Shown: in pieces, positions 6,110 to 40,978 of the stretch
Numbering within the stretch: position 1 is the stretch's first letter
Layout: the number at the start of each line of letters is the position of its first letter
DNA from: a virus
Length of the DNA: 41,732 nucleotides
Virus record (IMG/VR): IMGVR_UViG_3300017963_000425
Location: 1-41,732 of that record
Reading direction: 5' to 3' (one strand)
Made by a program: the position numbers and the translations under genes
The notes under the pieces: generated by a model
What the model was told of the DNA's origin: nothing
Databases searched by the model: none
The model's input: the letters and a program-made list of their open reading frames with translations, nothing else

Positions 6110-6228
6110 TATTCGTCCTCTGGAAAACCAAAACAAAACTTTCTTAATGCTTGATCCCTATCTTTCTTTTCCTGGAACTCACCAATCAAAATACCTTCAA
6201 CATTCCGTATCTTATGTGCTTTATACAT
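6109..6228 (-). CDS. 39-residue ORF lying between the two terminase domains
   Basis: A frame from ATG 6228 to TAA 6109. It overlaps the stop of the ATPase gene by 8 bases and shares one base with the nuclease start (TAATG). The product is charged and contains RNVEGILIGEFQEKKDR and a KFCFGFPEDE ending. It has its own GGGAGG site 7 bases upstream, so it looks like a genuine gene rather than debris. I do not recognise it. It could bridge or regulate the two terminase parts. Its frame differs from that of both neighbours. Confidence 0.55.
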   Translation of the reverse strand: MYKAHKIRNVEGILIGEFQEKKDRDQALRKFCFGFPEDE

Positions 6229-13305: not shown

Positions 13306-13346
13306 CACTTTTTCTGGCACCTTTTATTTTTTGTGCTTCTGGCAAA

Positions 13347-13686: not shown

Positions 13687-14775
13687 ATGGCAAATAAAGC
13701 AATGAAAAATATTAAAATAGGCATTGAGGTCGAATGTGTTATTAATGCCGATAAAGTGAGCGTGAATGCTGGTGCTTACCATAGCGGAGTGCGACAGCCA
13801 GGCTTACCTTTATGGAAGGTTGAGCGTGATGGCAGTCTGCGGAGCAATGGCGAGTTCGAGAATGCGAGGACTTGCGAGTTCGTGAGCAATGTTATTAGAA
13901 GCAAGAATGGCTATAATAAGGCCTTAAAAAAATTGCAGGAATTTCTGTCTGCTGGAGATAGCTACGACATGTGCGAAGTTGTTGCATTTAATAATAGTTG
14001 TGGTAGCCATGTGCATTTTTCCATTAAAGACTTTAACTTTAAGGAGAATGTTGTTTTTAAAAAGTATAGGGGCATTAGAAAACACTTTTTAAAGCGAATT
14101 GATAAATCTAAAGTTTTAAGCCAGGAAACAAAAGAAGCTATTAAAAAGCAATATGTCAGAAACTACGCTAAACGGTTGACAAGAGCGAGGATGGAAAGAA
14201 GCGTAAGGCATACCGAATTTAATTTCTCGAGTGAGGACATTGGCACAGGCCTTGAATGGCGAAGCATAAACTTAAACAATGTGCAAGACTGGGAAGAATT
14301 CCATGAAGTGTTCAAAATAATTTATGAATGCCTTGAATTTTTATACAAGCTTTCAACCAAATACACGAGCACATATAACCAGCGTATCCCTGACGTGCAT
14401 GGCGACAGGAACAATGGTTATGCATTAAAGTTTAAGGTTGCATACGACAAGAAGAAAGATGAAAGTATTGTTTTAACCTTGACAGCAACCGACAAACTGC
14501 GCAACATATTAAAGCGTGCAATAATCGAAGAAACGACAAGGTTCACAATATTGGGCAACAAAAAATATACCAGATATAAAGTAAAGCGTTCCAGGGTTGA
14601 CGGAGCGACTGGCGTTTATTTTTGGGAGATGTTGTTCGCCAAAAGATTGGTGGACAATGGCACCTTTGAAGTTGTGCTACCGAACACAGCATATATTAAT
14701 AGGATGATGGACAACCTAAAAACAGCAAGCAAAAGGTTAATCTATGCTGAATATATAGATAGCTTGGGTGACTAA
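13687..14775 (+). CDS. Amidoligase (glutamine-synthetase-like COOH-NH2 ligase)
   Basis: 362 residues. The pattern fits the amidoligase family of the glutamine-synthetase-like fold: GIEVECV near the start, EFVS around 64, CGSHVHFSI (105-113) with two His, and LEWRSIN near residue 197 for ATP/metal binding. These enzymes join a carboxylate to an amine using ATP; relatives in viruses and mobile elements have been predicted to modify peptides or cell-wall material. The next gene is a class II glutamine amidotransferase three bases away, a pairing known for this family, which would supply ammonia. Substrate unknown. Confidence 0.75.
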   Translation: MANKAMKNIKIGIEVECVINADKVSVNAGAYHSGVRQPGLPLWKVERDGSLRSNGEFENARTCEFVSNVIRSKNGYNKALKKLQEFLSAGDSYDMCEVVAFNNSCGSHVHFSIKDFNFKENVVFKKYRGIRKHFLKRIDKSKVLSQETKEAIKKQYVRNYAKRLTRARMERSVRHTEFNFSSEDIGTGLEWRSINLNNVQDWEEFHEVFKIIYECLEFLYKLSTKYTSTYNQRIPDVHGDRNNGYALKFKVAYDKKKDESIVLTLTATDKLRNILKRAIIEETTRFTILGNKKYTRYKVKRSRVDGATGVYFWEMLFAKRLVDNGTFEVVLPNTAYINRMMDNLKTASKRLIYAEYIDSLGD

Positions 14776-14777
14776 AA

Positions 14778-15599
14778 ATGTGCAACATAAACATTTTAAT
14801 TAAGGACAAAAAGGATAGCTGGAACGTCGCCAGTTTCATGATGGCAGTGACAGCTTCCAGCTATTCTCGTAACCCTGACGGAGAAGGGCTATTTTGTGAT
14901 AGCGACAGCAAGAGTTTGTTTATTAAACAGAACCAGAAGATTAACTTGCTAAATTATGGCAAATTGTTCAAGGATGGTAAGTTTATAATAACACACCAGC
15001 GACTCAGCACAAGCGGATTCAACCAAAGATGGCACCATCCTTTTGTGAATAAAGACTTTGTATTCGTGCATAATGGCATAATAAATCGTTTCCTTGGAAA
15101 GAAAGGTAGCGATTCATATGGTTTTTTTATGGCGTTCACTGCATTATTCAACAAATTGCAGACTGGCACAAGGGAAGAGCGTATTGTGCAGAGCATTAAG
15201 CACTTATTGGATGGTCTTGATGACGGCAGTTATAGCATTGCCATTTATGACAGAAGGACGGAGAAATTATACTATTGCAAGAACAGCATGACAAATATTC
15301 ACTTTTTTAGATTTGCCAGGAAGTTGTACATAACAACCCTGCATAGTAATTCAGAATTTATCCCAATGTTAAGCAAGCAACACACAGAACTTGACATTAA
15401 GGACTACACTATTTACAGAGCAAACAAGAAACAAGGGGAACCAGTTTCAGTTTATAGCATTGCTAACATAAAAGAACCAGAACCACCAAAGGAGACAGCA
15501 AAGGAAGAGACAACAAAGCAAAAAAAGAAGACCAAAGACGAAGTGCAATGCTATGACTATAACCCTTTCGAGAAATATTCGTGTCAAGAAACATATTAA
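14778..15599 (+). CDS. Class II glutamine amidotransferase
   Basis: 273 residues. The second residue is Cys (MCNIN), the N-terminal nucleophile once Met is removed. Further family residues are HQRLSTSG (Arg75), FVFVHNGII (Asn99-Gly100) and SDSYGF (Asp near 108). It hydrolyses glutamine to release ammonia, presumably for the amidoligase encoded immediately upstream. Residues 1-215 form the Ntn-hydrolase fold; the last 55 are a charged linker rich in Glu and Lys. There is no synthetase domain of its own, which supports partnership with the neighbour. The start is fixed by the need for Cys at position 2. Confidence 0.83.
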   Translation: MCNINILIKDKKDSWNVASFMMAVTASSYSRNPDGEGLFCDSDSKSLFIKQNQKINLLNYGKLFKDGKFIITHQRLSTSGFNQRWHHPFVNKDFVFVHNGIINRFLGKKGSDSYGFFMAFTALFNKLQTGTREERIVQSIKHLLDGLDDGSYSIAIYDRRTEKLYYCKNSMTNIHFFRFARKLYITTLHSNSEFIPMLSKQHTELDIKDYTIYRANKKQGEPVSVYSIANIKEPEPPKETAKEETTKQKKKTKDEVQCYDYNPFEKYSCQETY

Positions 15600-18443: not shown

Positions 18444-18602
18444 ATGGCTGAAGAAAGATACCATAAAGTTAGAGAAATTGTCAAGAAGAAAACGTCAGTA
18501 GTCTATGGTATCACGATTCCTAAACATATAGCTGAAGATTTTTTAGGTTTAGATATGAAGATAGTTCGTAGCGGTAGTTGTATAGTGTTAGAAAGTATTT
18601 AG
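18444..18602 (+). CDS. AbrB/SpoVT-like DNA-binding protein
   Basis: 52 residues from ATG 18444. The pattern KKKTSVVYGITIPKHIAEDF, then a Gly-Leu turn and SGSCIVLES matches the swapped-hairpin AbrB domain, widespread in archaea as a small dimeric transcription regulator. It lies directly before the glycosyltransferase operon and could control it or the AGTATATACT palindromes. It is too short for routine gene callers but has a clean start two bases after the previous stop. Confidence 0.6.
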   Translation: MAEERYHKVREIVKKKTSVVYGITIPKHIAEDFLGLDMKIVRSGSCIVLESI

Positions 18603-18626: not shown

Positions 18627-19874
18627 ATAGTAGAACAAAAACATATATACTGGCTTAGTGACAGTCCATTCTCAAACACAGGATTCAGCACAGTTTCTCT
18701 GAACGTGCTGAACGGACTTGATAAACGTGGTTGGAAATGTAGTTTCCAGTCGCACAATTATATCGGCCAGACCTTGCCGAAGGGAAGTGTAAGATTGGCG
18801 GATGGAACACCATTCAATTTCGACCTGTATGGTCACGGAAGAGAACAATACGCAAGAGACCTTCTTCAGCCACGAGTTCGAGAACTAAGACCGCAAATCT
18901 TCGGCGTTCTTCTTGATACTTTCATGTTATATCCTTGGTATCTGCAACAAAATTATGCGCCAGCGAAAACTATGTTTTATTTTCCAAGTGATGGTGGTGC
19001 ATGTCTTCCGCAAGGGTGCGAAGCGATACTACAGAAGTGCGACCTACCGATAGCAATGTCTAAGTTCGGCCAGAAACAAGTCAAGGAAATACACGGAATC
19101 AATGCAGAGTATATTCCGCATGCAGTAGATCCAAAGATATACTATCCTTTAGAACCGGAAGAAAAACAAAAATTGAAAGCAAAATTAGGCTTGTCCAACA
19201 AATTCGTGATCGGGGTTATGGGCAGAAATCAAGGCAGAAAGATGCATGATAGAATCTTTAAGATGTTTGCCAAGTTCGCTAAAATGCACCAAGACGTTAT
19301 TCTTTTCTGCCACTTTGACCCCAACGATTTGGCTGCGGTCTTTGATGTGAAACGCTTGATGCAAAGATTGAACGTGGCAAACAGAGTTGTCTTCTCTGGT
19401 GTGAACTACTTTCGTGGCTTCACTTACGAACAAATGAACGAAGTCTATAATGTGATGGATGTTTATCTATCAACAACAAGCGGAGAAGGTTTCGGTATCG
19501 GCACGATTGAAGCAATGGCTTGCAAGATTCCTGTCATCAATATCGCATACACTACTACTGAAGAATTAGTCATTGCCAATAATGCAGGAGAAAGCATCAA
19601 GCTTGTAGGTTGCGAAGAGATGTCATTATTGTCAACACCGAGCCAAGAGTTCGATTACAAGATGATGAACGGAACTATCACTGGCAGTTGGTGTGTTGAG
19701 CGCGGCATCTGCGACCTTGACGATGGTGTCAAAAAGCTCGAGAAGTTATATCAAGACGCAAAGTTAAGGGAAGATTACGGCAGGAACGGCAGACGTGCAG
19801 TGCTAAGAGACTATACTTGGGACGTTGTGAATGACGAGTTCGACAGACTGCTCACAAGATTGGTGAAATCATGA
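18627..19874 (+). CDS. GT-B glycosyltransferase (GT4-like), apparent AUA start
   Basis: About 415 residues if started at ATA 18627. The conserved N-terminal segment HIYWLSDSPFSNTGFS is read in frame upstream of the first GTG (18705), and GAGGTGA lies six bases before ATA, so translation seems to start there. The C-terminal half has the nucleotide-sugar site: MGRNQGRK, YLSTTSGEGFGIGTIEAMAC and a YTWDVV helix. It is a retaining-type GT-B enzyme that would add a sugar to a glycan or lipid acceptor. First gene of the glycan island. The sugar cannot be predicted. Confidence 0.8.
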   Translation: MVEQKHIYWLSDSPFSNTGFSTVSLNVLNGLDKRGWKCSFQSHNYIGQTLPKGSVRLADGTPFNFDLYGHGREQYARDLLQPRVRELRPQIFGVLLDTFMLYPWYLQQNYAPAKTMFYFPSDGGACLPQGCEAILQKCDLPIAMSKFGQKQVKEIHGINAEYIPHAVDPKIYYPLEPEEKQKLKAKLGLSNKFVIGVMGRNQGRKMHDRIFKMFAKFAKMHQDVILFCHFDPNDLAAVFDVKRLMQRLNVANRVVFSGVNYFRGFTYEQMNEVYNVMDVYLSTTSGEGFGIGTIEAMACKIPVINIAYTTTEELVIANNAGESIKLVGCEEMSLLSTPSQEFDYKMMNGTITGSWCVERGICDLDDGVKKLEKLYQDAKLREDYGRNGRRAVLRDYTWDVVNDEFDRLLTRLVKS

Positions 19875-20053
19875 AAGCAAAATATTTTATTAAAAAAGAA
19901 TATGCTGTTAATATACAAAAAGGAGATATTATTGAAGTTTCATTAGTGGAACATGATAAGTATGGTATTGATAGGCATATTTTTGTTGAAGGAGAAGTCA
20001 GTTGTATCCGCAGAGATCCAAAAGGAGAGTTCGCAGTAGTTTACATAAAATGA
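19871..20053 (+). CDS. 60-residue beta-rich hypothetical protein
   Basis: ATG 19871 overlaps the glycosyltransferase stop (ATGA). The sequence looks like an all-beta SH3 or OB-like small domain (IQKGDIIEVSLVEHDKYG, GEFAVVYIK). It has no enzymatic motif. It is coupled to the B12-binding gene downstream, again by ATGA. Confidence 0.55.
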   Translation: MKAKYFIKKEYAVNIQKGDIIEVSLVEHDKYGIDRHIFVEGEVSCIRRDPKGEFAVVYIK

Positions 20054-20445
20054 AGCGTGTTTATTTGATAAGTCCCAGCGAACAAGGTTTGCTTGCGAAT
20101 GCTGGTGACAGACCACCATTAGGAATATTATACATTGCTTCGTATCTTCGAGAAAATGGCGTCTCTGTTCGTGTCGCTGATATGAACCATATGAAGATTT
20201 CGGAGTTAGCTGATGAACTGATGCACTACTATCCGACCTATATTGGTATCAGTTTCAGCACTCCATTATACGAACGAGCAGTCCAGTTATTACGTTTTTG
20301 TCGTGCGTTTGTGCCGAGAGCAAAGTTTGTCGCAGGAGGTCCGCACCCTTCCGCTTCGCCAGAAAGTTGCGATGAGTTTGATTATGTAATTGTGGGGGAA
20401 GGAGAAGAAGCAATGTTGGAGTTAGTTACAGATGAAAGTTATTAA
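20050..20445 (+). CDS. B12-binding domain protein of a radical SAM pair
   Basis: 131 residues forming the Rossmann-like cobalamin-binding domain that normally begins B12-dependent radical SAM enzymes: RPPLGILYIASYLRENG, YPTYIGISFSTP, VAGGPHPSASPE and DYVIVGEGEEAMLELV. Lacking the DxHxxG His, as is usual for this class, it would bind B12 base-off without a His ligand. The chain stops where the radical SAM domain should follow; that domain is the next, overlapping gene. It would assemble with it or be joined by frameshifting. Such enzymes methylate or rearrange unactivated carbons. Confidence 0.75.
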   Translation: MKRVYLISPSEQGLLANAGDRPPLGILYIASYLRENGVSVRVADMNHMKISELADELMHYYPTYIGISFSTPLYERAVQLLRFCRAFVPRAKFVAGGPHPSASPESCDEFDYVIVGEGEEAMLELVTDESY

Positions 20446-21268
20446 AGCGAAACTGATAGAGAATATTAACGAACTTCCGTTGCCAGCGAGAGATTTGCTC
20501 GACATGAAGAATTATAATTTGATGCAAGATGGAAAACGAACCGCAACGCTCATCACGAGTAGAGGATGCACAGGCGTTTGTGCGTATTGCTCTCGAAAAT
20601 CACTTGGCAACAAATTCAGAGCTAACACACCTCGCAAAGTCATTCAAGAAATCAAGAGGCTTATGGAATATGGTTATGAAAGTTTTTACTTTCTTGACGA
20701 CATGTTCACTTACGATAATGAAAGGGCTGAAGAGATTGCAGACCTTATTATCAAAGAAGGGTTGAATATCACTTTCAGGATCACAACCAGAGCAGACACA
20801 GTAGATTATGACTTGCTCAAGAAGTTGAAATCTGCAGGTCTTGTAATGTTGAGCATAGGTATCGAACACGCAGACAACGAAGTTTTAAAAAAGTCACTCA
20901 AGAATATGACAATCGAACAGAACGAACAGGTCATAGATTGGTGCAACGAACTTTGCATTGAAGTGAAAGGTTTCTTCATCCTGAACTTGCCAGGCGCAAC
21001 AGAAAAAACCATCTGCAAGACTTTAGATTTTGCGAAACGAAAAGGTCTTAAATATGCAGACTTTTATATGCTGACTGCGTTTCCTGGCAGTAGTTTGTGG
21101 AATTTCCCTGACAAGTTCGGTATGAGATTGCTTGATGATAATTTTCATTTTTTCCAGGCATGGATGGGCAAGTATCCGCAGATCAATATTGATAGCAAAG
21201 AACTGCCAAAGGAAAAGATTATAAAGTTATGGGGAGAGGTAATGCAAGAATGGAACAAGAAAAAATAA
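20432..21268 (+). CDS. Radical SAM domain of a B12-type enzyme (separate ORF)
   Basis: 278 residues. SRGCTGVCAYCSR holds CX3CX2C (Cys 46, 50 and 53) for the [4Fe-4S] cluster, followed by the TIM-barrel segments ESFYFLDDMFTYD, FRITTRAD, MLSIGIEHAD and FFILNLPGATE. The N-terminal ELPLPARDLLD is the linker usually found just after a B12 domain. It overlaps the B12 gene by 14 bases in another frame, with GGAG 10 bases before ATG 20432. It probably methylates a glycan, lipid or peptide; a natural split and a frameshift are both possible. Confidence 0.82.
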   Translation: MKVIKAKLIENINELPLPARDLLDMKNYNLMQDGKRTATLITSRGCTGVCAYCSRKSLGNKFRANTPRKVIQEIKRLMEYGYESFYFLDDMFTYDNERAEEIADLIIKEGLNITFRITTRADTVDYDLLKKLKSAGLVMLSIGIEHADNEVLKKSLKNMTIEQNEQVIDWCNELCIEVKGFFILNLPGATEKTICKTLDFAKRKGLKYADFYMLTAFPGSSLWNFPDKFGMRLLDDNFHFFQAWMGKYPQINIDSKELPKEKIIKLWGEVMQEWNKKK

Positions 21269-21477
21269 AAAAATATATAAGAATTATTGAAGATATGGAA
21301 AGTGAACTATATTTATTAGAATGGACATTAAACAGAACTCCTGAAGAAGAAATAAAATTTGTAAAATTATTACAAGAATTTAGGGATATATATGGAATAA
21401 ATTATGGTCAAGTAGTAAAACCTTCGGATATTTTAAGAATTGTAGGTGCGTTTTTAACATGGTTGGAAAAAAATTAA
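21250..21477 (+). CDS. 75-residue helical hypothetical protein
   Basis: ATG 21250 lies inside the end of the radical SAM gene after GAGAGG. Long acidic helix (IIEDMESELYLLEWTL) followed by KFVKLLQEFRDIYG and a hydrophobic C-terminus overlapping the next start. AT-rich codon use differs visibly from the flanking enzyme genes. No function can be assigned. Confidence 0.55.
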   Translation: MEQEKIKKYIRIIEDMESELYLLEWTLNRTPEEEIKFVKLLQEFRDIYGINYGQVVKPSDILRIVGAFLTWLEKN

Positions 21478-22745
21478 TCATTGCATTGATAGGGCAGGAC
21501 GTGGAGAACGTCATCCGTCTCTGCTTAGATAGTATTAAATCTGTAGCGGACTATATAGTCTTTGTTGATGGTGGCAGTAAAGATGATACAATGTATATCC
21601 TTCAGCAAGAATATCCGCAAGTTCATATTATAGAACAAAGATACGAGCATGAGAATAAAGGGGCGAACGGAAAAGCGAGGAATGTCTATCTTGAATATGT
21701 GAAGAAACATTTCGATGGCGAATGGTGTCTTGTCTTGGATCCTGACGAATGCGTTGACCAGCCAGACATCCTGCGTAAGTTCTTAGATGATATTGAGAAA
21801 AGAGAAGATATAAAAGGAAGACAATTGATGTTCAATCCGAGAATGGAACACTTCATTTATTCATTAAGATATATTGATGCTACACAAGAGAAACATTTCT
21901 GTCCGTGCCGATTATTCACTATACACAACCATCTCTATTATGAAGAAGTCGAACATCCTGTTCTTCATTCTCACATTCCTATTCTAAACGTCAATCTTGA
22001 AGGTTTCACTATCTTTCATTTTGCGTATGCGAAAGCAATGTTCGAACTTAAGAAGAAGTATCTCAACCATCTCGAGAAATCTAACATACACGAACCAGAG
22101 TTCTTAGACTGGTGGTATCATGCACATCTGCTTGGCGAGTATCCAATAAAGGCAGTAAATATTGATGCTCTGCCGAAAGTCATCAAAGAACATTTCATAA
22201 TCAACGACGACTACCTCTATTTCAGAAACAGAGGTATGATTGAAGAAAAGCATTGGATGGATGCTCACCATTGGAATAAATTTTTCCAGCCAAAGAAAGC
22301 ACTCGTCTGTGGTTGTGGGATGGGACAACGAGTTTATACATTAAGAGCAATGGGTGTGCAAGCGTTCGGTTTCGATATTAACAAGTATGCGATAGAAAGA
22401 ACTAACTGCAAGGATATTGACAAGTATATTAAGGTTGATGACATTACCAAGATTGAACATTTCCAGGATGATCATTTCGACCTTGTTGTATGCTATGACG
22501 TTCTTGAACATTTAGATCCTGATAGCTTATCTATAGCTCTTGAGAAAATCTATAAAGTTGGGAAGGAAAACTTTTTGTTTTCTATCCCCTTTATAGGCGA
22601 TCCTAACCTTGACGCAGATCCTACTCATAAGATAAAACAAACAAAACAATGGTGGATAGAACAGATACAGAAGGCAGGTTTCCAGTTAAGATTGCCACCG
22701 AAGCATTTCTTATACAAACACCAAATAATATTAGCGAAAAAATGA
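21459..22745 (+). CDS. GT-A glycosyltransferase fused to SAM methyltransferase
   Basis: 428 residues. Residues 1-230 are a family-2 glycosyltransferase: DYIVFVDGGSKDDTM and the metal-binding DPDECVDQPD motif. Residues 275-428 are a class I methyltransferase: CGCGMGQRVYTL (SAM loop), GFDINKYAIERT, and FDLVVCYDVLEHLDP, then SIPF. One polypeptide could thus add a sugar and methylate the same or a neighbouring sugar, typical of surface glycan capping. It overlaps the preceding small gene by 19 bases. The acceptor is unknown. Confidence 0.83.
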   Translation: MVGKKLIIALIGQDVENVIRLCLDSIKSVADYIVFVDGGSKDDTMYILQQEYPQVHIIEQRYEHENKGANGKARNVYLEYVKKHFDGEWCLVLDPDECVDQPDILRKFLDDIEKREDIKGRQLMFNPRMEHFIYSLRYIDATQEKHFCPCRLFTIHNHLYYEEVEHPVLHSHIPILNVNLEGFTIFHFAYAKAMFELKKKYLNHLEKSNIHEPEFLDWWYHAHLLGEYPIKAVNIDALPKVIKEHFIINDDYLYFRNRGMIEEKHWMDAHHWNKFFQPKKALVCGCGMGQRVYTLRAMGVQAFGFDINKYAIERTNCKDIDKYIKVDDITKIEHFQDDHFDLVVCYDVLEHLDPDSLSIALEKIYKVGKENFLFSIPFIGDPNLDADPTHKIKQTKQWWIEQIQKAGFQLRLPPKHFLYKHQIILAKK

Positions 22746-22891
22746 TAAAAAAAATAGCGAGGGAAGTTGAAGAATGGGCAGGAACATTATTATTAGTAGT
22801 TTTTGCATTACTTGTAATTGTAATATTTTTTCCAGTTGCATTCTTCATGCAGAAAAATGATATTAGGAGAACAACAAATCGGAAGGCCTGA
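22742..22891 (+). CDS. 49-residue single-pass membrane peptide
   Basis: ATG 22742 overlaps the previous stop (ATGA). A short charged N-terminus precedes one transmembrane helix (residues about 14-34, LLLVVFALLVIVIFF) and a basic tail. It may anchor the glycan enzymes at the membrane. It overlaps the start of the next glycosyltransferase by 35 bases. Confidence 0.5.
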   Translation: MIKKIAREVEEWAGTLLLVVFALLVIVIFFPVAFFMQKNDIRRTTNRKA

Positions 22892-23519
22892 AAAGTTTAA
22901 AGTGGCAATCTTAGTTCCAACAGTGCCAGGGAACGAAAATACATTGATGGATTGTCTTTGTCATATCATAACCAATAGTAAAAATTATGATTATGAGATC
23001 ATAGTTTATAAGAATAATTTTGAAGGATATACTCCTGCGATAAATAAATTAATAACACAAGCTTTTTCAATACCTGATATACAAGCTGTCTTCATGCTGA
23101 ACGATGACATCAATATCCAAGACGAAGAGTGGCTCAGTAAGTTTATAGAAGCAATAAAAGAAAATACAGGAGTTGTCTGTCCGTTATCTCATTGGAGAAA
23201 TGAACATTGTAGTATGGGTTTTTGTCTAATGCCTCGTCCAGTTCTTGAACAAATGAAAGCAGAAGAAGGCAACTATTTCGATGAAAGGTTTAAGATATTG
23301 AACTGGGATGATGTGGATATGAGTGTTCGTCTGCAAGAAGCTGGTTATGAACTTGTAAAGATTAATGACCATAATAAACCAAATAAACCAATGTTTCATC
23401 ACAAAGGTAGTCTCTCCACTAAAATGTACACTCCTGCGATGGTGGAAGAGATGAAACAAAATAAATTTAGGTTCAAAGAAAAATGGAAAGGTACTCGTTG
23501 GGAGAAAAAATGGAACTGA
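22857..23519 (+). CDS. GT-A glycosyltransferase (family 2)
   Basis: About 220 residues. FKVAILVPTVPGNEN is the usual first strand; VFMLNDDINIQDEEW contains the DxD-like metal site; NWDDVDMSVRLQEAGYELV is the conserved acidic and ED/WDD region. An HHKGSLS segment closes the site. The enzyme would transfer a sugar from a nucleotide sugar with inversion. The exact start is uncertain because no strong ribosome site is seen; a GTG near residue 16 is possible. Confidence 0.78.
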   Translation: MILGEQQIGRPEKFKVAILVPTVPGNENTLMDCLCHIITNSKNYDYEIIVYKNNFEGYTPAINKLITQAFSIPDIQAVFMLNDDINIQDEEWLSKFIEAIKENTGVVCPLSHWRNEHCSMGFCLMPRPVLEQMKAEEGNYFDERFKILNWDDVDMSVRLQEAGYELVKINDHNKPNKPMFHHKGSLSTKMYTPAMVEEMKQNKFRFKEKWKGTRWEKKWN

Positions 23520-24310
23520 AAGAATTATTTGCAAAGCATAAAGATAAGACATTTATCGTAGTCACACCTAATAAAGGGAACTGGGGCGATGAACTTATCC
23601 GGCAAGGTGCGAAAAAGTTATTGCGAGAACTTAATATTAAATATGAAGAATGGAGCCGTAGTGGTTTCGAGTTTGATCGTGGTGAAGATATAATTTTCTA
23701 TATACATGGTGTTGGTGGTTTTGGTCGCACATATCCTAATGTATTGAGCAAGGCAAAAGCAATCCGTAAGCATTATCCTAATAATCTTATAATCTATGGT
23801 CCTTCTACTGCAATGGTAGGAGAAGAACATCTCAAGCAAATGAAAGATGAAATGATAACTGATGATAAATTCATTCTTTTTGCAAGAGAAAGGACAACAT
23901 TCAATTACCTACGTCATAACTTTCCTGACCTTAACCTATACTTGGATGTTTGTCCTTCTCTTCATTTAATGAAAGAAGACCTTATCTCAAAAAATATTTC
24001 GCAAGACGAAATCAAGATACTTACTGCAATAATGGCGAGGGAAGATACTTTCGAGAAGCCAGAAACTGAACCTTCTCAGTTTTCTATCGCTGGATCTATG
24101 CGTTTTGATCCTGTAGATGCACGAGATTTCGCTGAGTTCATTAATTATCATTTATATTCAGGAATAATATATACTAATCGTTGTCATTCTGCAATCTTAG
24201 GAATGATATTAAATAAACCAGTATATATGTCTAATAATAATTATCATAAAAATAAATCTGTATGGGAGTATTGTCTTAAAGATAGAGGCGTGCAATGGAT
24301 AGGAAATTAA
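23510..24310 (+). CDS. Polysaccharide pyruvyl transferase-like protein
   Basis: 266 residues. It has the family layout: TPNKGNWGDELIRQGA at the N-terminus, a GVGGFGR turn, IIYGPST, ARERTT, and the C-terminal TNRCHSAILGMILNKPVYM with the catalytic-region His. Such enzymes attach pyruvate ketals to sugars or use PEP-related donors on surface polymers. A GGGAG site five bases before ATG 23510 supports the start. The gene overlaps the previous glycosyltransferase by 10 bases and the next methyltransferase by 16. Pyruvylation itself is inferred. Confidence 0.75.
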   Translation: MELKELFAKHKDKTFIVVTPNKGNWGDELIRQGAKKLLRELNIKYEEWSRSGFEFDRGEDIIFYIHGVGGFGRTYPNVLSKAKAIRKHYPNNLIIYGPSTAMVGEEHLKQMKDEMITDDKFILFARERTTFNYLRHNFPDLNLYLDVCPSLHLMKEDLISKNISQDEIKILTAIMAREDTFEKPETEPSQFSIAGSMRFDPVDARDFAEFINYHLYSGIIYTNRCHSAILGMILNKPVYMSNNNYHKNKSVWEYCLKDRGVQWIGN

Positions 24311-24768
24311 ATCTTGGGAGCGGTTTTCGGCCACGAAAACAAAATGAAGGCTGGATCAATATAGATATTGAAGAAGAATGTATGCCTGACATTGTGCGTG
24401 ATGTAAGGAAAGGTCTGCCTTTTGATGATAATAGTGTTGACTATGTTTATGCTTCGCACTTTATGGAACATTTTGAATGGGAAGATTTCATCTTCTTGAT
24501 GAGTGAGATATGGCGAGTATTGAAACCAGAAGCAACCTTCGAGATGATAATTCCTCACTATAAGCATGAGAATGCATTTGACATTGACCATAAGATAGTT
24601 ATCACGCCAAGAACTTTTCGAGTTTTCCAGCGAGGCTTGAAAGCTACAAGTTCATATAAACATTTCAACAATAATAAAGTTTACTTCAAAAAAGCAGAGA
24701 TATTTGATGATTTCGATGGAACGAGGGGCGAACCGCAACTATACTGCAAGTTCAAAGCAGACAAATAA
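24295..24768 (+). CDS. Class I SAM-dependent methyltransferase
   Basis: 157 residues, a compact single-domain enzyme. Motif I is LNLGSGFRPRKQ, motif II lies in GWINIDIEEE, and DYVYASHFMEHFEW and EIWRVLKPEATFEMIIPH are the later motifs, typical of small glycan or lipid methyltransferases located in polysaccharide gene clusters. It is short because it lacks a lid domain. It lies between the pyruvyl transferase-like gene and the SPASM enzyme. The target is unknown. Confidence 0.82.
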   Translation: MDRKLNLGSGFRPRKQNEGWINIDIEEECMPDIVRDVRKGLPFDDNSVDYVYASHFMEHFEWEDFIFLMSEIWRVLKPEATFEMIIPHYKHENAFDIDHKIVITPRTFRVFQRGLKATSSYKHFNNNKVYFKKAEIFDDFDGTRGEPQLYCKFKADK

Positions 24769-24770
24769 AA

Positions 24771-25808
24771 ATGGCAGAATTAAATAGTTTTAATCAGTTG
24801 AAAGTATTGCATTGGAAAGATAGGATAGAAAAGATTATAGATGGAGGTTTCCCTCCACCTGTCACAGTAGAGATAGATCCAAGCAATAATTGTAACCATA
24901 ACTGTCCGCATTGTTTCTATAAAGAGTTCAGGGAAGGAAAGAATAGACATCTGCCGAAGAAAACTTTATTTAATATTATAGAACAATTAATATTAGCTGG
25001 TGTTAAATCTATAACCTTTACTGGTGGTGGTGAACCTCTCGCTAACGCACACACAGTAAAAGCATTAGAAAAGTATTCAGAACATATAGATTTTGGTCTT
25101 GTCACGAATGGCGGTATGCTGAAAGGACACGAAAAGATTATAGTAAAGCATTGTAAGTATGTAAGGATAAGTCTTGATGCTGGTTGTGAATATGCACACA
25201 AGAAGATGCATTGCAGTGATGATTATGACAGAATCGTGGAGAGCATCACTACTCTCGCTAAGCTTAAGAAGGAACTCAAAAGCGAGATAGAAATTGGAGT
25301 TACCTTTCTACTTAATGAAAATAATGCGGATGAACTCGAGAAGTTCGTATTCGTTGCTTCAGGGACAGGCGCAGACTTTGCTTATATTCGGCCAGAAATT
25401 GGTTGGGAGAAAGAGTTTCCTAAAGACTTCATCCCAGAAGTCAAGAAGAATCTTAGAAGATGCAAAACATACGAAAGTAAGCGGTTCAAACTATACATAA
25501 ACATTCCTCGTATTAACCAAGTCGTGACGAAGGAAAAGACGTTCAAGCGTTGCCTTAGCACCCCTCTCATTTCAGTGATCGGTGCCGACGGCAATGTTTA
25601 TCTTTGTTGTCAATGGCGTGGCAGTCCTCTGCATGTCATTGGCAATATTTACAAACAAAAGTTTAAAGACTTATGGGGTGGAAAACGACACAGAGAGATC
25701 CTAAAATGGATAGATGTCAATAAATGTCCGCCCTGCCGGAACGGAATATATAACGAAATCTTTGAGAGGTGTATTATAAATGACGGACTCAGACAAAACT
25801 TTTTATGA
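24771..25808 (+). CDS. Radical SAM enzyme with SPASM-type C-terminus
   Basis: 345 residues. CNHNCPHC (41-48) is the CX3CX2C site; FTGGGEPLAN and VTNGGML are the following SAM-binding segments. The C-terminus has VYLCCQWRG, GNIYKQKFKDLWGG and NKCPPCRNGIYN, the SPASM/twitch region which binds an auxiliary cluster. Relatives modify peptides (RiPPs), alcohol groups or sugars. In this cluster a sugar or peptide substrate is equally possible. It begins two bases after the methyltransferase stop without a strong ribosome site. Confidence 0.83.
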   Translation: MAELNSFNQLKVLHWKDRIEKIIDGGFPPPVTVEIDPSNNCNHNCPHCFYKEFREGKNRHLPKKTLFNIIEQLILAGVKSITFTGGGEPLANAHTVKALEKYSEHIDFGLVTNGGMLKGHEKIIVKHCKYVRISLDAGCEYAHKKMHCSDDYDRIVESITTLAKLKKELKSEIEIGVTFLLNENNADELEKFVFVASGTGADFAYIRPEIGWEKEFPKDFIPEVKKNLRRCKTYESKRFKLYINIPRINQVVTKEKTFKRCLSTPLISVIGADGNVYLCCQWRGSPLHVIGNIYKQKFKDLWGGKRHREILKWIDVNKCPPCRNGIYNEIFERCIINDGLRQNFL

Positions 25809-26001
25809 GGGAACTTTAGAAGAAATTAGAACAAAGTATGTAATTATAGAAACGAACGAAAAGAAGATAATCTTAATTCCTTTGGATAGCATTTGTTCTA
25901 TGGAATTATTAGATTTTGAAAATACTACTTGGGTGAAAACACAAGATAAAAATCTTGACGAAAACATAGAAGATACAAAAGTAAAGGTGATTGTAAGATG
26001 A
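25780..26001 (+). CDS. 73-residue beta-rich protein, possibly Sm-like
   Basis: ATG 25780 follows GAGAGGTG inside the end of the SPASM gene and the stop overlaps the next start (ATGA). YEGTLEEIRTKYVIIET, followed by KIILIPLDSICSMELLDF, resembles the strand order of an Sm/LSm or Hfq-type barrel, but this is weak. It could equally be a small adaptor. No catalytic motif. Confidence 0.5.
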   Translation: MTDSDKTFYEGTLEEIRTKYVIIETNEKKIILIPLDSICSMELLDFENTTWVKTQDKNLDENIEDTKVKVIVR

Positions 26002-26843
26002 ACCACGAAATTGACGTTCTCGTCACAACAAAAGATAGACACAGCGAGATAGCTTTGATGGTGCAAAGTCTTAGGACGCAAACCTTCCAGAAATGGAATC
26101 TTATCATCTTGGATGATGCGAGCGGAACGCCAATCCAAGCTTGTGGTTTTCTTTCTATGCTATTGAACCAAGTTAAGCTCGAAGGACATAAAGTAAAACA
26201 TCTAAGGAACGAAATCTCGTATGGAGTATGTGCTGCGAGAAATACTTTGATAGATGCGCAACTTAATTGGAATAGTAGTGCTGACTTAATCTTGCGTGCT
26301 GATGATGACGTAATTTTTGAGCCTGACTATCTTGAACGCTTGATTAAAGTTATAGATTCTGGCTATGATCTCGCTTCTGGTATTGTCCCTATTTGCGGAC
26401 AACCTATCCCTGTGCGAAAGATAGATAAGATAATGCCAATTATAAACGAACATAAGCTTGACGAGAATGGAAATCTTACGCAATTAAATGATGATTGTGG
26501 CTACAAATATACAGAAGCTAAGGTCCTGCCCACACACCATTTCAGAACTAATTGTATGTATAAGAAAGAAGTCCACGAAAAAGTCAGACATCCAACAAAT
26601 CTTACGCCAGTAGGTTTTCGTGAAGAAGGCTTTTTTTCTATGAGAGCAATCTTGCTCGGCTACAAAATTGGAGTTGATACTGGTGCGGTTGCGTATCATG
26701 CAGTTTGCCAGAGCGGTGGTTGTCGTTATCCTAATTATGGTGAATGTGTCCAGACAGATGAGAAGACCTGGCGTGATTGGATCAAGGAAAAGTTCATTGA
26801 GCACGGTGACTTCATAGCTGATTATAATGGAAGAACTAAATAA
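25998..26843 (+). CDS. GT-A glycosyltransferase (family 2)
   Basis: 281 residues. IDVLVTTKDR is the first strand, LIILDDASG and GVCAARNTLID bind the nucleotide, and LILRADDDVIFEP provides the metal-binding acids. The FREEGFFSMRAILLGYKIG segment is the acceptor-side ED-like motif. A C-terminal Cys-rich loop (CQSGGCRYPNYGEC) is unusual for the family. It would transfer an activated sugar. The start overlaps the preceding small gene. Confidence 0.82.
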   Translation: MNHEIDVLVTTKDRHSEIALMVQSLRTQTFQKWNLIILDDASGTPIQACGFLSMLLNQVKLEGHKVKHLRNEISYGVCAARNTLIDAQLNWNSSADLILRADDDVIFEPDYLERLIKVIDSGYDLASGIVPICGQPIPVRKIDKIMPIINEHKLDENGNLTQLNDDCGYKYTEAKVLPTHHFRTNCMYKKEVHEKVRHPTNLTPVGFREEGFFSMRAILLGYKIGVDTGAVAYHAVCQSGGCRYPNYGECVQTDEKTWRDWIKEKFIEHGDFIADYNGRTK

Positions 26844-27234
26844 ATGTATTGTCACGACATGTAGAGAAAATGGAAAAATCTATGCCTACCTTGAAGGGAA
26901 ACCTTTATGTTACTGTCGTGCGCACAAGAATTTATTTTGGGAGTTCTTAGCGATATGGTATGATTCGCAAGGTTCTCTCGCTAACAATAAGAAAAGGTTG
27001 AAACATATATCTAATGTGAAAAAAAGAAGGAGAACTAAAAAATTCAATAAAAAGTTTTTCTTCAACAAATTTGAGAAGGTGAAAAAAAATGAAATTGAAC
27101 ATGATAGGGCCAAGTATCGGCGCAAGTGGATTCTGCAATCATATAAGACAGTTGGCTCTTGCACTGCAAGAGGAGGGCGTCGAACTAAGGCTGGACTCGC
27201 CAAAAAACGCTGGTTGGGAGATGCACGTGAGTGA
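26827..27234 (+). CDS. Cys-containing basic protein overlapping the next gene
   Basis: 135 residues from ATG 26827, which overlaps the previous gene by 17 bases. The first 60 residues have four Cys and a His (CIVTTC, CYCRAH), a likely zinc finger, followed by a very basic stretch (KKRRRTKKFNKK). The last 48 codons overlap the glycosyltransferase starting at 27089, an unusually long overlap, so the genuine product may be shorter or a frameshift may be present. Function unknown. Confidence 0.45.
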   Translation: MEELNKCIVTTCRENGKIYAYLEGKPLCYCRAHKNLFWEFLAIWYDSQGSLANNKKRLKHISNVKKRRRTKKFNKKFFFNKFEKVKKNEIEHDRAKYRRKWILQSYKTVGSCTARGGRRTKAGLAKKRWLGDARE

Positions 27235-28225
27235 TGCTGAATACTTAATGCATACTCGCCCTTTCGACCATGAGATGACATCTGTCTTGATAGGGCAACC
27301 CAATTTCTTACCTTTTGTCTGGGCAGAAAATCCGAAGCATACTATTGCTTTCGTGATATGGGAAGGGGATAGAGTTCCAGATTATTGGATACCACTACTT
27401 AAAGACAAAAGAACAAGTCAAGTTTGGGTGCCGAGCAATCATGTTAAGAACGCTATTGCTGAAACTACTGCTAATTATGCAGAAACTGCTGAAGAAGCAA
27501 CGGAAGATTGCTCTAAAATGATAGATAAGATCCATATTGTCCCTCACGGTGTTGATCTCTCGATATTTAATACCTCTGAGAGCCAAATAAGAGCCGATAC
27601 AGAGCCTTTCACTTTCATAGCTAACAAGGGTTGGTCACAAGGAATAAACGACAGGGGAGGCATACAATGGCTCCTGAAGGCCTACTGTGAAGAGTTTAAG
27701 CCAGAAGAAAACGTGCTTTTAAAGGTCAAGATTAATCCGGTATATAATAACCCTAACTGGAACTTAAATGATGAAATCATTAAATTAAATTTAAAGAAGC
27801 CACATGCTAATATCGCAGTCTCTACTGACCTTATTGAATTCAAGAAAATGAAAGACTTCTATAAAGGAGACGTTTTCGTAAGCTCAACAATGGCGGATGC
27901 TTTTGGTCTTCCTACAATGGAAGCAATGGCTTGCGGTCTCCCAGCAATACAAACTAACTTTGGTGGCCAGACAGATTTCGTGAATAATGAAAATGGCTGG
28001 CTCGTGGATTATGAACTGCAAGAAGTTAAACATGATCCAATGTATGAAGGAGTATCTTGGGCAAAACCTAATCTAAATGACTTGAAAAGAGTAATGCGAC
28101 AATGCTTTAATAACAAGGATCTTGTTGTGAAGAAAGCAGAACTTGCACACCAAGAAGCACAGAAATGGACGTGGCGAAACTCAGCAAAGAAAGCCATCTC
28201 TGCCCTCGATAAATTAAAAGAATAA
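27089..28225 (+). CDS. GT-B glycosyltransferase (GT4-like)
   Basis: 378 residues. GPSIGASGFCNHIRQLA is the N-terminal glycine loop; HIVPHGVDLSIFN closes the first domain; VFVSSTMADAFGLPTMEAMAC with two Glu and QTNFGGQTDFV is the nucleotide-sugar site, and a WTWRN helix ends the fold. It is of the retaining class. The GAAGGTG site 7 bases before ATG 27089 is good. It is the last gene of the rightward operon, ending just before the bidirectional terminator. Confidence 0.85.
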   Translation: MKLNMIGPSIGASGFCNHIRQLALALQEEGVELRLDSPKNAGWEMHVSDAEYLMHTRPFDHEMTSVLIGQPNFLPFVWAENPKHTIAFVIWEGDRVPDYWIPLLKDKRTSQVWVPSNHVKNAIAETTANYAETAEEATEDCSKMIDKIHIVPHGVDLSIFNTSESQIRADTEPFTFIANKGWSQGINDRGGIQWLLKAYCEEFKPEENVLLKVKINPVYNNPNWNLNDEIIKLNLKKPHANIAVSTDLIEFKKMKDFYKGDVFVSSTMADAFGLPTMEAMACGLPAIQTNFGGQTDFVNNENGWLVDYELQEVKHDPMYEGVSWAKPNLNDLKRVMRQCFNNKDLVVKKAELAHQEAQKWTWRNSAKKAISALDKLKE

Positions 28226-28299: not shown

Positions 28300-28494
28300 T
28301 TATTTCCTTAATGCTTCTACTTTTCTTGCAATACCATAAGTTGTCAATGGTATGCCAAGAACTGCGGCGATTTGTTTAATTATCTCTGCCCATTGTCCCC
28401 AACCGAGTGCTTGTAATGCACCAGCAATACCAATACAAAGAGCACCATAAAATGTCATACTCTTCCAGAATGGTTTATTTTCTTTTTTTGCCAT
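28300..28494 (-). CDS. Small two-helix membrane protein, holin-like
   Basis: 64 residues with a basic N-terminus (MAKKENKPFWK) and two hydrophobic helices, FYGALCIGIAGALQAL and IAAVLGIPLTTYGIA, ending in a basic tail. Small proteins of this layout lie next to lysins in tailed viruses and are often holins, though sequence cannot prove it. A GGAGGATTG site precedes ATG 28494. It is the last gene of the leftward transcript, next to the terminator. Confidence 0.6.
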   Translation of the reverse strand: MAKKENKPFWKSMTFYGALCIGIAGALQALGWGQWAEIIKQIAAVLGIPLTTYGIARKVEALRK

Positions 28495-28512
28495 TTATAT
28501 CAATCCTCCAGA

Positions 28513-28716
28513 TTATTTAATAGATGATATGGTTATAAAACCATAAGTTAATAACGCACTTAATATGCCAAGAGCACCAGTTGCTATCCAGCGAAAGCGA
28601 GAATTAGATTCTACTTTCGCAACAAGACCTCGCTGGCCGTTACCGAAGACTGCCTGTTTGATCCATTTAACATCAGTATGTATCTCTGAAATCTTGTTCA
28701 AATCTTCTTGTCTCAT
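28513..28716 (-). CDS. Single-helix membrane protein, holin/XhlA-like
   Basis: 67 residues: an amphipathic acidic N-terminus with DVKWIKQAVFGNGQRGL, a typical motif of haemolysin XhlA-type phage proteins, then one C-terminal transmembrane helix (WIATGALGILSALLTYGF). It overlaps the transglutaminase-like gene by 4 bases. The two membrane proteins and the peptidase form a probable lysis module. Confidence 0.65.
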   Translation of the reverse strand: MRQEDLNKISEIHTDVKWIKQAVFGNGQRGLVAKVESNSRFRWIATGALGILSALLTYGFITISSIK

Positions 28717-29375
28717 TTCTTGAATGCCTCTCCTTTGTAACTTTTCACTTCATTCGTGGCGAACCAAATATTGCCATAATATTTATTCTTTCGGAGCGGA
28801 ATACCATTATAATAATATCTCCTGCAAACCGAAGGATAAAAACTACCTTCCATTGGGTAAAAGTCCATCTCTTCTTCCGTCAAATATAAAGCGTATGCGT
28901 GTCCTCCAGCATAAACGCCTCGAGAATCAAAGACGTCTCCTGCACAAACATAGCGTCTGTATCGTGGTATGCCCACCAAACCCCAAGCGTAGCAAATAAG
29001 TACAGCATATCCATCGCAATCATCCCTCCATGATTTAAAGATAGTGTAAGGATCTGCCCAGTATTCCGTGCGATTGAACCTGGCAGGATCCGAAACATAA
29101 GTTATCTTCTTAGTTATATGCTCAGCGATAATCTGTGCTTTAATGTCCATCTCTGTCTCTTCAGCAACAAGTTTCTCGAAGTATTCTTTCATCTCGGCTT
29201 TTTGTTTCGCTGTGACTTTGAATACATCACGGATGTCAATGTAACCTCTCTTTCTCGCATTATAACGAATGTGTCTCGTCTCATACTTTTTATCAATATA
29301 GTCTGTCATCTGGTCAGTAAAGTCCTTTCTACCAAAAAATAAATCTCTTAACTTTTTGCTCCATTTAAATCCCAT
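28713..29375 (-). CDS. Transglutaminase-like cysteine peptidase, possible lysin
   Basis: 220 residues. WRDDCDGYAVL (Cys120), GGHAYALYL (His159) and an acidic residue near 171-176 (EEMDFYPMEG) form the Cys-His-Asp/Glu arrangement of the transglutaminase-like fold. An N-terminal helical region of about 85 residues precedes it. Archaeal virus lysins of pseudomurein-containing methanogens are of this broad fold, but a tail-associated role is also possible. Its neighbours are the two holin-like proteins and a fibre protein. Not a classic bacterial endolysin. Confidence 0.7.
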   Translation of the reverse strand: MGFKWSKKLRDLFFGRKDFTDQMTDYIDKKYETRHIRYNARKRGYIDIRDVFKVTAKQKAEMKEYFEKLVAEETEMDIKAQIIAEHITKKITYVSDPARFNRTEYWADPYTIFKSWRDDCDGYAVLICYAWGLVGIPRYRRYVCAGDVFDSRGVYAGGHAYALYLTEEEMDFYPMEGSFYPSVCRRYYYNGIPLRKNKYYGNIWFATNEVKSYKGEAFKK

Positions 29376-32825: not shown

Positions 32826-34844
32826 CTATGCACTAATCAATAATTGTAATCTTTCTTGTAATGCTTCTGCCACGTTCTCTGCGTCCAGACCTTGAATCGT
32901 GCCAATATTAACATTGATACCTCCTACTCCTACTCTTGGACTATTTAGAGGCACTACTGCTTCTGGTCCAGCCTCGCCGATTAAAGCCATTGTTGGACTT
33001 CTAACTATGCCTCCATGTTGCATTGTAGGTATTGATGAAGTAAATCCTGAATATGTATGCCCCCTTGATAATATTCTCCCCATAGATTGTGCAGAAAAAC
33101 CTCCACCTGCACGTTCTGGCCCATATTTCTCTGCAAGTCTTGCCCTTGCTTCAGTAGTTGCACCAGATATAATAGAAGAACCCATTGTAGCCAAAAAGGC
33201 TGCTTTTTCTTCAGTAGTTGATTTTCTATCAAGAGTATCCATTAATATCTTTAATTGAGTTGAGAAGTCAGCAATCTTGGGGACAACTTCTTCTGCTTTG
33301 GTTTTAGCATCCGCCATTTTTTGATTTAATATTTCTTGTTCCGCAACATATTTCTCTCCAGAAATTTTACCAGCATCATATTGTTTTTCTAACTGTTCGG
33401 TTGCTAATTGAAAGGCATATTGATCTTTTGCTAACTGAACAATTGCTTGGCTCGAAGTTATTGTTGCCTGACTGCCTAAAACTTCCGCTTCTGTTTTTAC
33501 TTCCTGTTTCCCTATTAATTCATCCATAAGACTACTTTCTTCTTCAAGCCCAGCAACTCGTTGTATTTGTTGTTCATTCATATCTTCTTGACTTGTCCCC
33601 ATTAATTGACCTGCACCGAGCATCATCATTGCAGTTGTAGGATCTGTTGGCAAACCATAAGTCCCAAGTTTAGGTGCGGCTTCACCATACATCTTCTTTA
33701 ATGATTCTTGCTGTAATGCCATCTGAGCGCCAGTAGCTGCAACTCCAACTGCAAAAGCCCCTATCGTCCCAGCACCAACTCCTGCAAGAGCACCACCAAC
33801 TCCCGCACCTCCTCCTTTTCCTGCAATTTTTCCAGCAATACCTCCTGCGGTTCCAGTACCTCCGCCAGCAATATTAACATTCGTTGCTTGAACATTCATA
33901 TTTGCAGTTTTAATAAGACCAAGCGTTTTAGCAATATCCACTCCTTTCGCAACAACACCAGCACCAATTACGGCTGCTCCTGCACCAACAACACCTTTAG
34001 AAATCAAACCTCTCATCTCAGGAGATAGTTCTTGGAATGCTGCCACCATTTTAGATAGCCAAGAAACTACAGACTTTATTGGAGGTAATAACTCCTGACC
34101 AATATCACGAGCAAGAATTGTAATACTATCTATGAGATTGGATATTTGTCCATTTAAAGATTCTGCTTGTTTATCCATAAGATTAGCAAATCTTCCACCT
34201 TCAGAAGACATTGTTTTAAATGCTTTAAGAACAGCATCCGCACCAATCTCGCCTCTTGATGTCATATCTTGTATTTCTGCAGTTGTAACGCCTAATTGTT
34301 TTGATAATTCATCAAGAAGCGGAACACCATTAACTGCAAAATCTCTTAATTCTCTTCCAGTAAGCTTTCCTTGATTTTTAACCTGTCCTAAATTAAGAAT
34401 CAATCTTTGCAAACCTTCTTCTCCCATACCTAAACCTGCAGATACATCTCCAAGATCTTTCAATACTGGCAATACTTCTTCAGCTTCAAAACCAACAGCA
34501 AGTAATTGTCTTGCTGCTTTCTCAACACCAGGCAAAGTAAATGGAGTTTTCTTCGCAAAATCTGTAAGTTTCTTTAGAAATTTTTCTGCTTTTTGTGTAT
34601 CACCAATTAAAGTTTTGAATGCTATTTGGGTTTGTTCAAATTTTCCTGCTTCTCTTGCCATCAATGCAAAAGCGCCTGCTACACCAAGAGCTGCGACCTT
34701 TGAAGCTTTCCCAAGCTTAGCCATCGAGGTTTCAGCTTTTTTAAACTCAGCAGAGAATTGATCTACTGCTCTGATAACTATTTGAACTGAAGCTGCCCCT
34801 GCAAAACCTCCCATAAAACTGCTCCCAAAACTTCCTAATGCCAT
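32826..34844 (-). CDS. Tape measure protein
   Basis: 672 residues. Residues 20-270 are the TP901-type tape measure domain: VIRAVDQFSAEFKKAE, KFLKKLTDFAKKTPF, LPGVEKAARQLLAVGF and GRELRDFAVNGVPLLDELSKQ. A hydrophobic Ala/Gly segment (residues about 280-380) is the predicted membrane-interacting part, then a helical region and a C-terminal GGIVRSPTMALIGEAGPEAV sequence typical of tape measures. The length suggests a tail of roughly 100 nm, by the usual 0.15 nm per residue. It starts at a TAATG junction with the frameshift product of the chaperone gene. Confidence 0.87.
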   Translation of the reverse strand: MALGSFGSSFMGGFAGAASVQIVIRAVDQFSAEFKKAETSMAKLGKASKVAALGVAGAFALMAREAGKFEQTQIAFKTLIGDTQKAEKFLKKLTDFAKKTPFTLPGVEKAARQLLAVGFEAEEVLPVLKDLGDVSAGLGMGEEGLQRLILNLGQVKNQGKLTGRELRDFAVNGVPLLDELSKQLGVTTAEIQDMTSRGEIGADAVLKAFKTMSSEGGRFANLMDKQAESLNGQISNLIDSITILARDIGQELLPPIKSVVSWLSKMVAAFQELSPEMRGLISKGVVGAGAAVIGAGVVAKGVDIAKTLGLIKTANMNVQATNVNIAGGGTGTAGGIAGKIAGKGGGAGVGGALAGVGAGTIGAFAVGVAATGAQMALQQESLKKMYGEAAPKLGTYGLPTDPTTAMMMLGAGQLMGTSQEDMNEQQIQRVAGLEEESSLMDELIGKQEVKTEAEVLGSQATITSSQAIVQLAKDQYAFQLATEQLEKQYDAGKISGEKYVAEQEILNQKMADAKTKAEEVVPKIADFSTQLKILMDTLDRKSTTEEKAAFLATMGSSIISGATTEARARLAEKYGPERAGGGFSAQSMGRILSRGHTYSGFTSSIPTMQHGGIVRSPTMALIGEAGPEAVVPLNSPRVGVGGINVNIGTIQGLDAENVAEALQERLQLLISA

Positions 34845-40285: not shown

Positions 40286-40286
40286 T

Positions 40287-40970: not shown

Positions 40971-40978
40971 TTTACACC

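Follow-up and report, generated by a model that had tools for sequence, protein, structure and literature searches.

The stretch of DNA analysed here (IMG/VR record IMGVR_UViG_3300017963_000425, positions 1 to 41,732; hereafter the window) is the nearly whole genome (~41.8 kb) of a tailed virus and carries, at 18627-28225, a contiguous island of glycan-modification genes. The locus recurs in ~50 IMG/VR contigs and in one Pacearchaeota metagenome-assembled genome (MAG). Its ends are conserved glycosyltransferase (GT) genes, its middle is variable, it is linked to one capsid family, and it marks a viral group. With a probability of about 0.5, we read it as a virus-owned cytosolic assembly line of this tailed-virus group for a glycan with a constant core and variable decorations, most likely placed on virion proteins.

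Gene content of the island

The island takes up 9.6 of ~41.8 kb, or ~23% of the genome, close to the quarter estimated in a first-pass annotation made from the sequence. Pfam, PHROG, and NCBIfam searches recovered all genes named in that annotation, each at its position, and the tight packing of the open reading frames (ORFs; intergenic gaps ≤24 nt, overlaps in most cases) fits the single operon it had described. The genes are, in order:

18444-18602 (+): AbrB/MazE-like probable DNA-binding protein, 52 amino acids (aa); directly upstream of the operon and belonging with it
18627-19874 (+): GT-B1, GT4-type glycosyltransferase, conserved 5′ bookend (Pfam Glycos_transf_1, 2e-15)
19871-20053 (+): small ORF, 60 aa, no function assigned; 4-nt overlap with each neighbour
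20050-20445 (+): cobalamin (B12)-binding domain of a class-B-like radical S-adenosylmethionine (SAM) enzyme, as a separate ORF (Pfam B12-binding, 7e-19)
20432-21268 (+): radical SAM domain, HpnJ/BchE/AprD4-like, with CX3CX2C as CTGVCAYC (Pfam, 2e-24)
21229-21477 (+): small ORF, 82 aa, no function assigned and without homologue among the islands
21459-22745 (+): GT2-methyltransferase fusion, GT2MT (Glycos_transf_2, 4e-9; Methyltransf_11, 1e-11)
22649-22891 (+): small ORF with one hydrophobic segment, which may be spurious (97-nt overlap)
22836-23519 (+): GT-A enzyme, GT2b (Glycos_transf_2, 6e-4, below the Pfam cut-off; phrog_2456, 2e-5)
23483-24310 (+): polysaccharide pyruvyltransferase family protein (Pfam PS_pyruv_trans, 1e-9)
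24295-24768 (+): class I methyltransferase (Pfam Methyltransf_11, 2e-8)
24771-25808 (+): SPASM radical SAM enzyme, with CX3CX2C as CNHNCPHC (Radical_SAM, 3e-19; SPASM, 4e-9)
25780-26001 (+): small ORF, 73 aa, no function assigned
25998-26843 (+): GT-A enzyme, GT2c, part of the conserved 3′ end (Pfam, 2e-15)
27089-28225 (+): GT-B2, GT4-type glycosyltransferase, conserved 3′ bookend (Pfam Glycos_transf_1, 1e-10)

Two of the earlier counts depend on how they are taken. Three GT-A enzymes are present when the GT2MT fusion is one of the three, not when it is counted separately, and the three "radical SAM-related" genes comprise two radical SAM enzymes and a separate B12-binding ORF that is not itself one. 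The proposed start of the island at 18627 stands, as the conserved N-terminus of GT-B1 extends in frame back to an ATA there, behind GAGGTGAT; ORF callers place the start at 18705. This ATA is possibly a base-call error, possibly a real change. Overall, the gene content supports the earlier suggestion that the virus carries a glycan pathway involving methylation, radical chemistry, and, probably, pyruvylation.

Among related viruses, GT-B1 is 35-62% identical to its counterparts in ~50 viral loci and the radical SAM protein (20432-21268) 56-57% identical to its own. The DXD-like and SAM motifs of GT2MT are conserved, GT2b has homologues in five islands (L129, L151, L125, L137, and L101), and the SPASM gene has relatives in many. 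The AlphaFold2 (AF2) model of GT-B2 (predicted local distance difference test score, pLDDT, 87) matched best, in Foldseek, the chlorovirus NY-2A protein B736L (3oy2; E 7e-15).

A locus with constant ends marks a viral group

A tblastn search of all window proteins against virus contigs selected by their capsid gene found GT-B1, B12/radical SAM, GT2-methyltransferase, GT2c, and GT-B2 in collinear order at 35-57% identity. Profile scans of viral loci identified 60 GT-B1 (~50 at ≥35% identity), 33 GT-B2, and 36 GT2MT genes. Complete islands were delimited with our own hidden Markov models, giving 28 distinct loci of 4.1-11.3 kb (median 8.4 kb). All were found by the GT-B1 scan, so that GT-B1 in first position (28/28) is a selection criterion; 10 kb were fetched downstream of GT-B1, and longer islands such as that of virus G008 appear open and are excluded from the count. 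GT2c lies near the end, ahead of GT-B2, in every complete island (28/28), the full GT2MT fusion is present in 20, and at least one radical SAM gene in 21 (10 B12-type, 14 SPASM).

The window's capsid family is encoded by 23 of 27 contigs selected by GT-B1 (E < 1e-110). Conversely, seven of eight capsid-selected records of at least 21 kb, with the Pacearchaeota MAG counted once, have one bookend or both; the eighth is a 28-kb fragment. Because capsid and bookends are linked in both directions, and the same gene order accompanies the same capsid gene in dozens of independent contigs, assembly chimerism, which the first-pass annotation had set as the test of its reading, is clearly ruled out.

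Immediately before GT-B1, an ORF of ~50-100 aa occurs in 24 loci (the window and 23 others) with the common pattern KxRxI...YGxTIP...SGxxIILxSG. In the window, its 52-aa product was modelled with a beta-beta-alpha-beta-beta topology (AF2, pLDDT 89), and the top Foldseek matches were MazE, VapB, and AbrB at a non-significant E of about 1. Pfam returned no match for the window's ORF and a weak one for 1 of the 24 members. The modelled fold is compatible with an AbrB-like (swapped-hairpin) protein, a putative regulator. The first-pass annotation had noted neither this ORF nor the bookended layout with its variable middle, and likewise not the scarcity of membrane proteins or the likely archaeal (perhaps DPANN) affiliation.

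The variable middle

Pfam searches of 120 middle proteins (three from the window, the rest from 28 islands) identified GT2 enzymes, methyltransferases, radical SAM enzymes, GDP-mannose dehydratase/epimerases, and UDP-glucose dehydrogenase; nucleotidyltransferases also occur in the middle across islands. Virus G008 (65.8 kb; L042, L043) encodes both transketolase halves, a GHMP kinase, a cytidylyltransferase, and GDP-mannose dehydratase there, and its sugar-nucleotide set also has a UDP-glucose dehydrogenase-like gene. The methyltransferase directly preceding the SPASM gene in the window does so in five further islands (L124, L132, L133, L137, and L145).

Identities of GT-B1 and GT-B2, encoded 4-11 kb apart, co-vary across 352 island pairs (rho 0.67), as do those of GT-B1 and GT2c (rho 0.57, 479 pairs). 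Co-variation of GT-B1 with the GT2-methyltransferase is weak (0.14), and no correlation was found with GDP-mannose dehydratase (GMD, -0.24) or PDH1 (0.26; 28 pairs each). In some island pairs, PDH1 is 75-77% identical while GT-B1 is 48-49% identical. These comparisons involve non-independent pairs, a narrow identity range, and gene-specific rates; at the level of sequence, they suggest that middle genes are exchanged among viruses. DPANN hosts as a recent source of the GT2-methyltransferase gene were considered and rejected, as 370 genomes held no chromosomal homologue at E < 1e-30 and the sole match was a viral contig.

Radical SAM and pyruvyltransferase-family enzymes

The B12-type enzyme has the class B layout, a B12-binding domain followed by a radical SAM core with CX3CX2C, both of which are present. 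Its NCBIfam scores for HpnJ (135 bits), BchE (104), and AprD4 (84) all lie well below the cut-offs, and AprD4 was the nearest solved structure when a fused relative was used as query. Enzymes of the HpnJ/BchE/AprD4 type catalyse steps at C-C bonds or dehydrate by a radical route, and C-methylation is known for other enzymes of the class. In the window, the two domains are encoded in different frames with a 14-nt overlap (20432-20445) and do not form one polypeptide; in relatives L050 and L045, they are a single ORF. This interruption, seen in the window only, could be natural, or could stem from a recent frameshift or from an error in base calling.

For the SPASM enzyme, both the Radical_SAM and SPASM Pfam models scored over the cut-off, and no close characterised relative was found. 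Used alone as query against viral contigs, the gene returned no relatives with patterns that were too specific; GT profiles did work. By analogy with known SPASM sugar enzymes, our guess is a sugar oxidation or epimerisation. The window has one more radical SAM gene, its third, away from the island (8796-10226 (-), 476 aa, CSFGCLYC, phrog_13321), which appears by eye to be of the SplB/photolyase type.

The pyruvyltransferase-family protein resembles Klebsiella WbbZ (6x1l) in length and in sharing the three conserved motifs of that enzyme (PMC10629545), although identity between the two is low. Its NWGD, RERTT, and YTNRCHSAIL align to N29xGD, R121, and H226 of WbbZ, corresponding to the motifs NxGD, Rxxx(S/T), and His, structure matches included WbbZ (1e-6) and Pvg1p (5ax7), and the Pfam family match is above its cut-off. 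From these motifs, pyruvate transfer by the 23483-24310 protein is probable. No counterpart was present in the other islands of the set compared.

A probably soluble pathway and its proposed product

A simple hydropathy count (not a trained predictor) found at least two hydrophobic windows in one of 448 island ORFs; the locus therefore probably brings no flippase, polymerase, or oligosaccharyltransferase of its own. The same scan found no multi-transmembrane flippase, polymerase, or exporter in the islands. Neither it nor Pfam on the window's island proteins revealed an AglB-type oligosaccharyltransferase; no search with an AglB-specific model was made, and the host might supply such an enzyme. 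The pathway would then have a cytosolic acceptor, with virion proteins as obvious candidates, or else borrow membrane enzymes of the host.

In the proposed pathway, GT-B1, GT2c, and GT-B2, joined in most islands by the GT2MT fusion, would use nucleotide sugars of the host to make a constant core, onto which the enzymes of the variable middle would add virus-specific decorations. For the window virus, these would include an O-methyl group and, probably, a terminal pyruvate. The B12-type radical SAM enzyme could perform a sugar C-methylation, or else a dehydration or C-C step, and the SPASM enzyme might oxidise or epimerise a sugar. Glycan assembly would take place in the cytosol, where virions are also put together, and the acceptor would most likely be a virion protein.

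Several points weigh against this reading. We infer the manufacture of a glycan, the chemistry of each step, and the acceptor from sequence. The pairwise identities behind core and decorations are non-independent and the middle-gene comparisons few, and the split B12/radical SAM step could be broken in the window, or the base call wrong. The pathway could also extend a lipid-linked host glycan by borrowing a host flippase and transferase. Sequon enrichment, finally, is weak. The first-pass annotation had singled out the sequon-rich proteins at 38843-40970 for glycoproteomics; in 40287-40982 we counted 9 NXS/T against 4.6 in shuffles (p = 0.024, uncorrected over 59 proteins, and inside a repeat), and in 38843-40285 10 against 6.7 (p = 0.11), so that the sequons are weak evidence for N-glycosylation. 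The two proteins (38843-40982 (-)) lie by the capsid genes; each begins with a hydrophobic segment and contains repeats rich in Asn, and the one of 480 aa has a homologue near the L122 island.

A change of the host surface is the main rival explanation, possible though less favoured. Here, a glycan on a lipid carrier of the host would be built or trimmed by viral enzymes, and the host would flip it and attach it to S-layer or lipid, blocking superinfection or masking receptors. O-antigen-type genes and GT2/GT4/GT9 enzymes of methanogen viruses have been read in this way (PMC9723712), dolichol phosphate is the carrier on which archaeal N-glycans are put together, on the cytosolic side (PMC10384203), and serotype-like variability fits receptor warfare. 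Against it, the islands showed neither a membrane GT nor a flippase, polymerase, or oligosaccharyltransferase in the hydropathy scan, and long-term protection of a lysogen is less plausible given that no integrase or other lysogeny gene was recognised in the scanned ORFs. We consider a diffusible or polymeric small product, such as an exopolysaccharide or a radical-SAM natural product, improbable: every complete island has GTs at both ends and no exporter or polymerase was found, even though the families nearest to the B12 radical SAM enzyme (HpnJ/BchE/AprD4) act on lipids, tetrapyrroles, and aminoglycosides. Still less probable is glycosylation of viral DNA at hypermodified bases. Virus GTs acting on DNA exist (Pyle et al. 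2024, cited in PMC12619734), but no thymidylate-synthase-like base hydroxymethylase (PF00303) scored over the cut-off in the window and 15 relatives, and a locus with pyruvylation, nucleotide-sugar enzymes, and as many as five GTs is better explained by an oligosaccharide. Separately, QueE-/QueD-like genes recognised by inspection in the Pacearchaeota MAG virus (L102 7357-8769 (-)) hint at 7-deazaguanine DNA modification in some members.

More tentatively, the cytosolic assembly line could be the serotype locus of a large group of tailed viruses of small DPANN archaea, in which fixed end GTs enclose exchangeable, radical-SAM-rich cassettes swapped among viruses and each virion carries a different exotic glycan. 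Such glycans might possibly help the viruses to reach hosts whose life depends on other archaea, or to evade them.

Host affiliation

Comparison with named phages places the capsid closest to haloarchaeal tailed viruses; for the tail tube, the nearest matches are haloarchaeal viruses together with some Bacillus phages. A sibling virus is present in two Pacearchaeota MAG contigs (G019 C14 and C11), with PCNA- and PolB-like proteins recognised by inspection, and DPANN contigs of up to 421 kb encode proteins distantly related to the window's capsid, portal, and tail hub. Regions with such capsid/portal/tail hub relatives (L078-L085; G113 C2, G080 C6, G049 C16, and G105 C29) are candidate proviruses. 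CRISPR spacers of 371 DPANN genomes gave no convincing match in an insensitive search with two candidates scored per genome. An archaeal host is likely. A DPANN host is plausible, a preference that partly reflects genome searches covering DPANN only. Two sibling viruses, including G008, carry a bacterial-type DNA polymerase III alpha, which together with the Bacillus-phage tail-tube matches would favour a bacterial host; given the capsid, the sibling in the MAG, and the relatives on DPANN contigs, such a host is less likely.

Comparison with known systems

The best-known examples of virus-coded capsid glycosylation come from giant algal viruses. Chloroviruses use mostly soluble virus GTs, including the GT-GT-methyltransferase fusion A064R, and their capsid protein glycan combines a common core with virus-specific decoration and methylated termini (PMC9614988). 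With PBCV-1 and NY-2A, the island would share mostly soluble GTs, a GT-methyltransferase fusion, and a core-plus-decoration design, and the fold of GT-B2 is closest to B736L. Chlorovirus genes are scattered, their host is a eukaryotic alga, and no radical SAM enzymes have been described from them, whereas the island is one operon in a tailed virus, and its glycan is a predicted one. By analogy, we regard chloroviruses as the best functional precedent.

Like bacterial O-antigen and capsule loci, the island has constant flanks and an exchangeable middle with nucleotide-sugar and decoration genes; unlike them, its constant genes are GTs, and the hydropathy scan found no Wzx, Wzy, ABC exporter, ligase, or initiating membrane transferase. 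Viruses of methanogens and methanotrophic archaea also encode epimerase, GDP-mannose dehydratase, and GT2/GT4 genes and are radical-SAM-rich viruses of anoxic habitats, but these were reported as scattered auxiliary genes (PMC9723712), whereas the viral group described here is defined by a single conserved locus with bookends. In mycobacteriophages, phage-coded GTs glycosylate capsid and tail-tube proteins; in the part of the account available to us, the GTs are few, and radical SAM, pyruvyl, and nucleotide-sugar genes are not mentioned (Freeman et al. 2023, cited in PMC12619734). Some structural proteins of the haloarchaeal virus HRTV-DL1 are glycosylated, and loss of host AglB had no effect on infection (PMC10384203). 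Virus-coded glycan loci are a known kind of system, of which this one is a variant with new architecture and predicted chemistry.

If our interpretation is true, prokaryotic viruses too keep serotype-like loci, here modular, radical-SAM-rich, and marking a probably archaeal tailed-virus group, and with dozens of natural variants gene content could be matched to glycan structure. Should the hosts be DPANN archaea, the locus would offer a handle on viral recognition of little-known cells and a source of sugar-modifying radical enzymes.

Other features of the genome

Contig L058 (~100% identical) joins window position 41732 to position 1 across a ~58-base gap (L058 1000-1102). Since it spans the window ends, the genome is circular or circularly permuted, at ~41.8 kb. 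Rfam families and tRNAs were searched for in the window and none was found; a terminator scan gave no excess over chance, and the promoter model used does not fit archaea. The structural genes, alongside which the genome also encodes tail proteins, are:

302-1153 (-): capsid protein
1644-2549 (-): protease-like protein
3486-5408 (-): portal fused to a minor head domain
5513-6136 and 6221-7033 (-): large terminase as two ORFs (ATPase and nuclease)
32826-34844 (-): tape measure protein

The two-ORF terminase also occurs in the Pacearchaeota MAG virus (L088 242-1639 (-)) and seems to be a group trait. A 574-aa ORF (11596-13320 (-)) has no Pfam or PHROG match and 40-49% identical homologues in two DPANN MAGs (G199 C45 and G363 C27). 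At 13687-15599 (+), an Amidoligase_2 gene and, behind it, a glutamine-amidotransferase-like gene with a weak GATase_6 match may encode a pair of peptide ligases. Downstream of the island, a transglutaminase-like cysteine protein (28713-29375 (-), DDCDGY) is encoded with a further ORF (28300-28716 (-)) and adjoined by two small transmembrane proteins; together, the transglutaminase-like and transmembrane proteins may form a lysis or entry cassette with a non-murein target.

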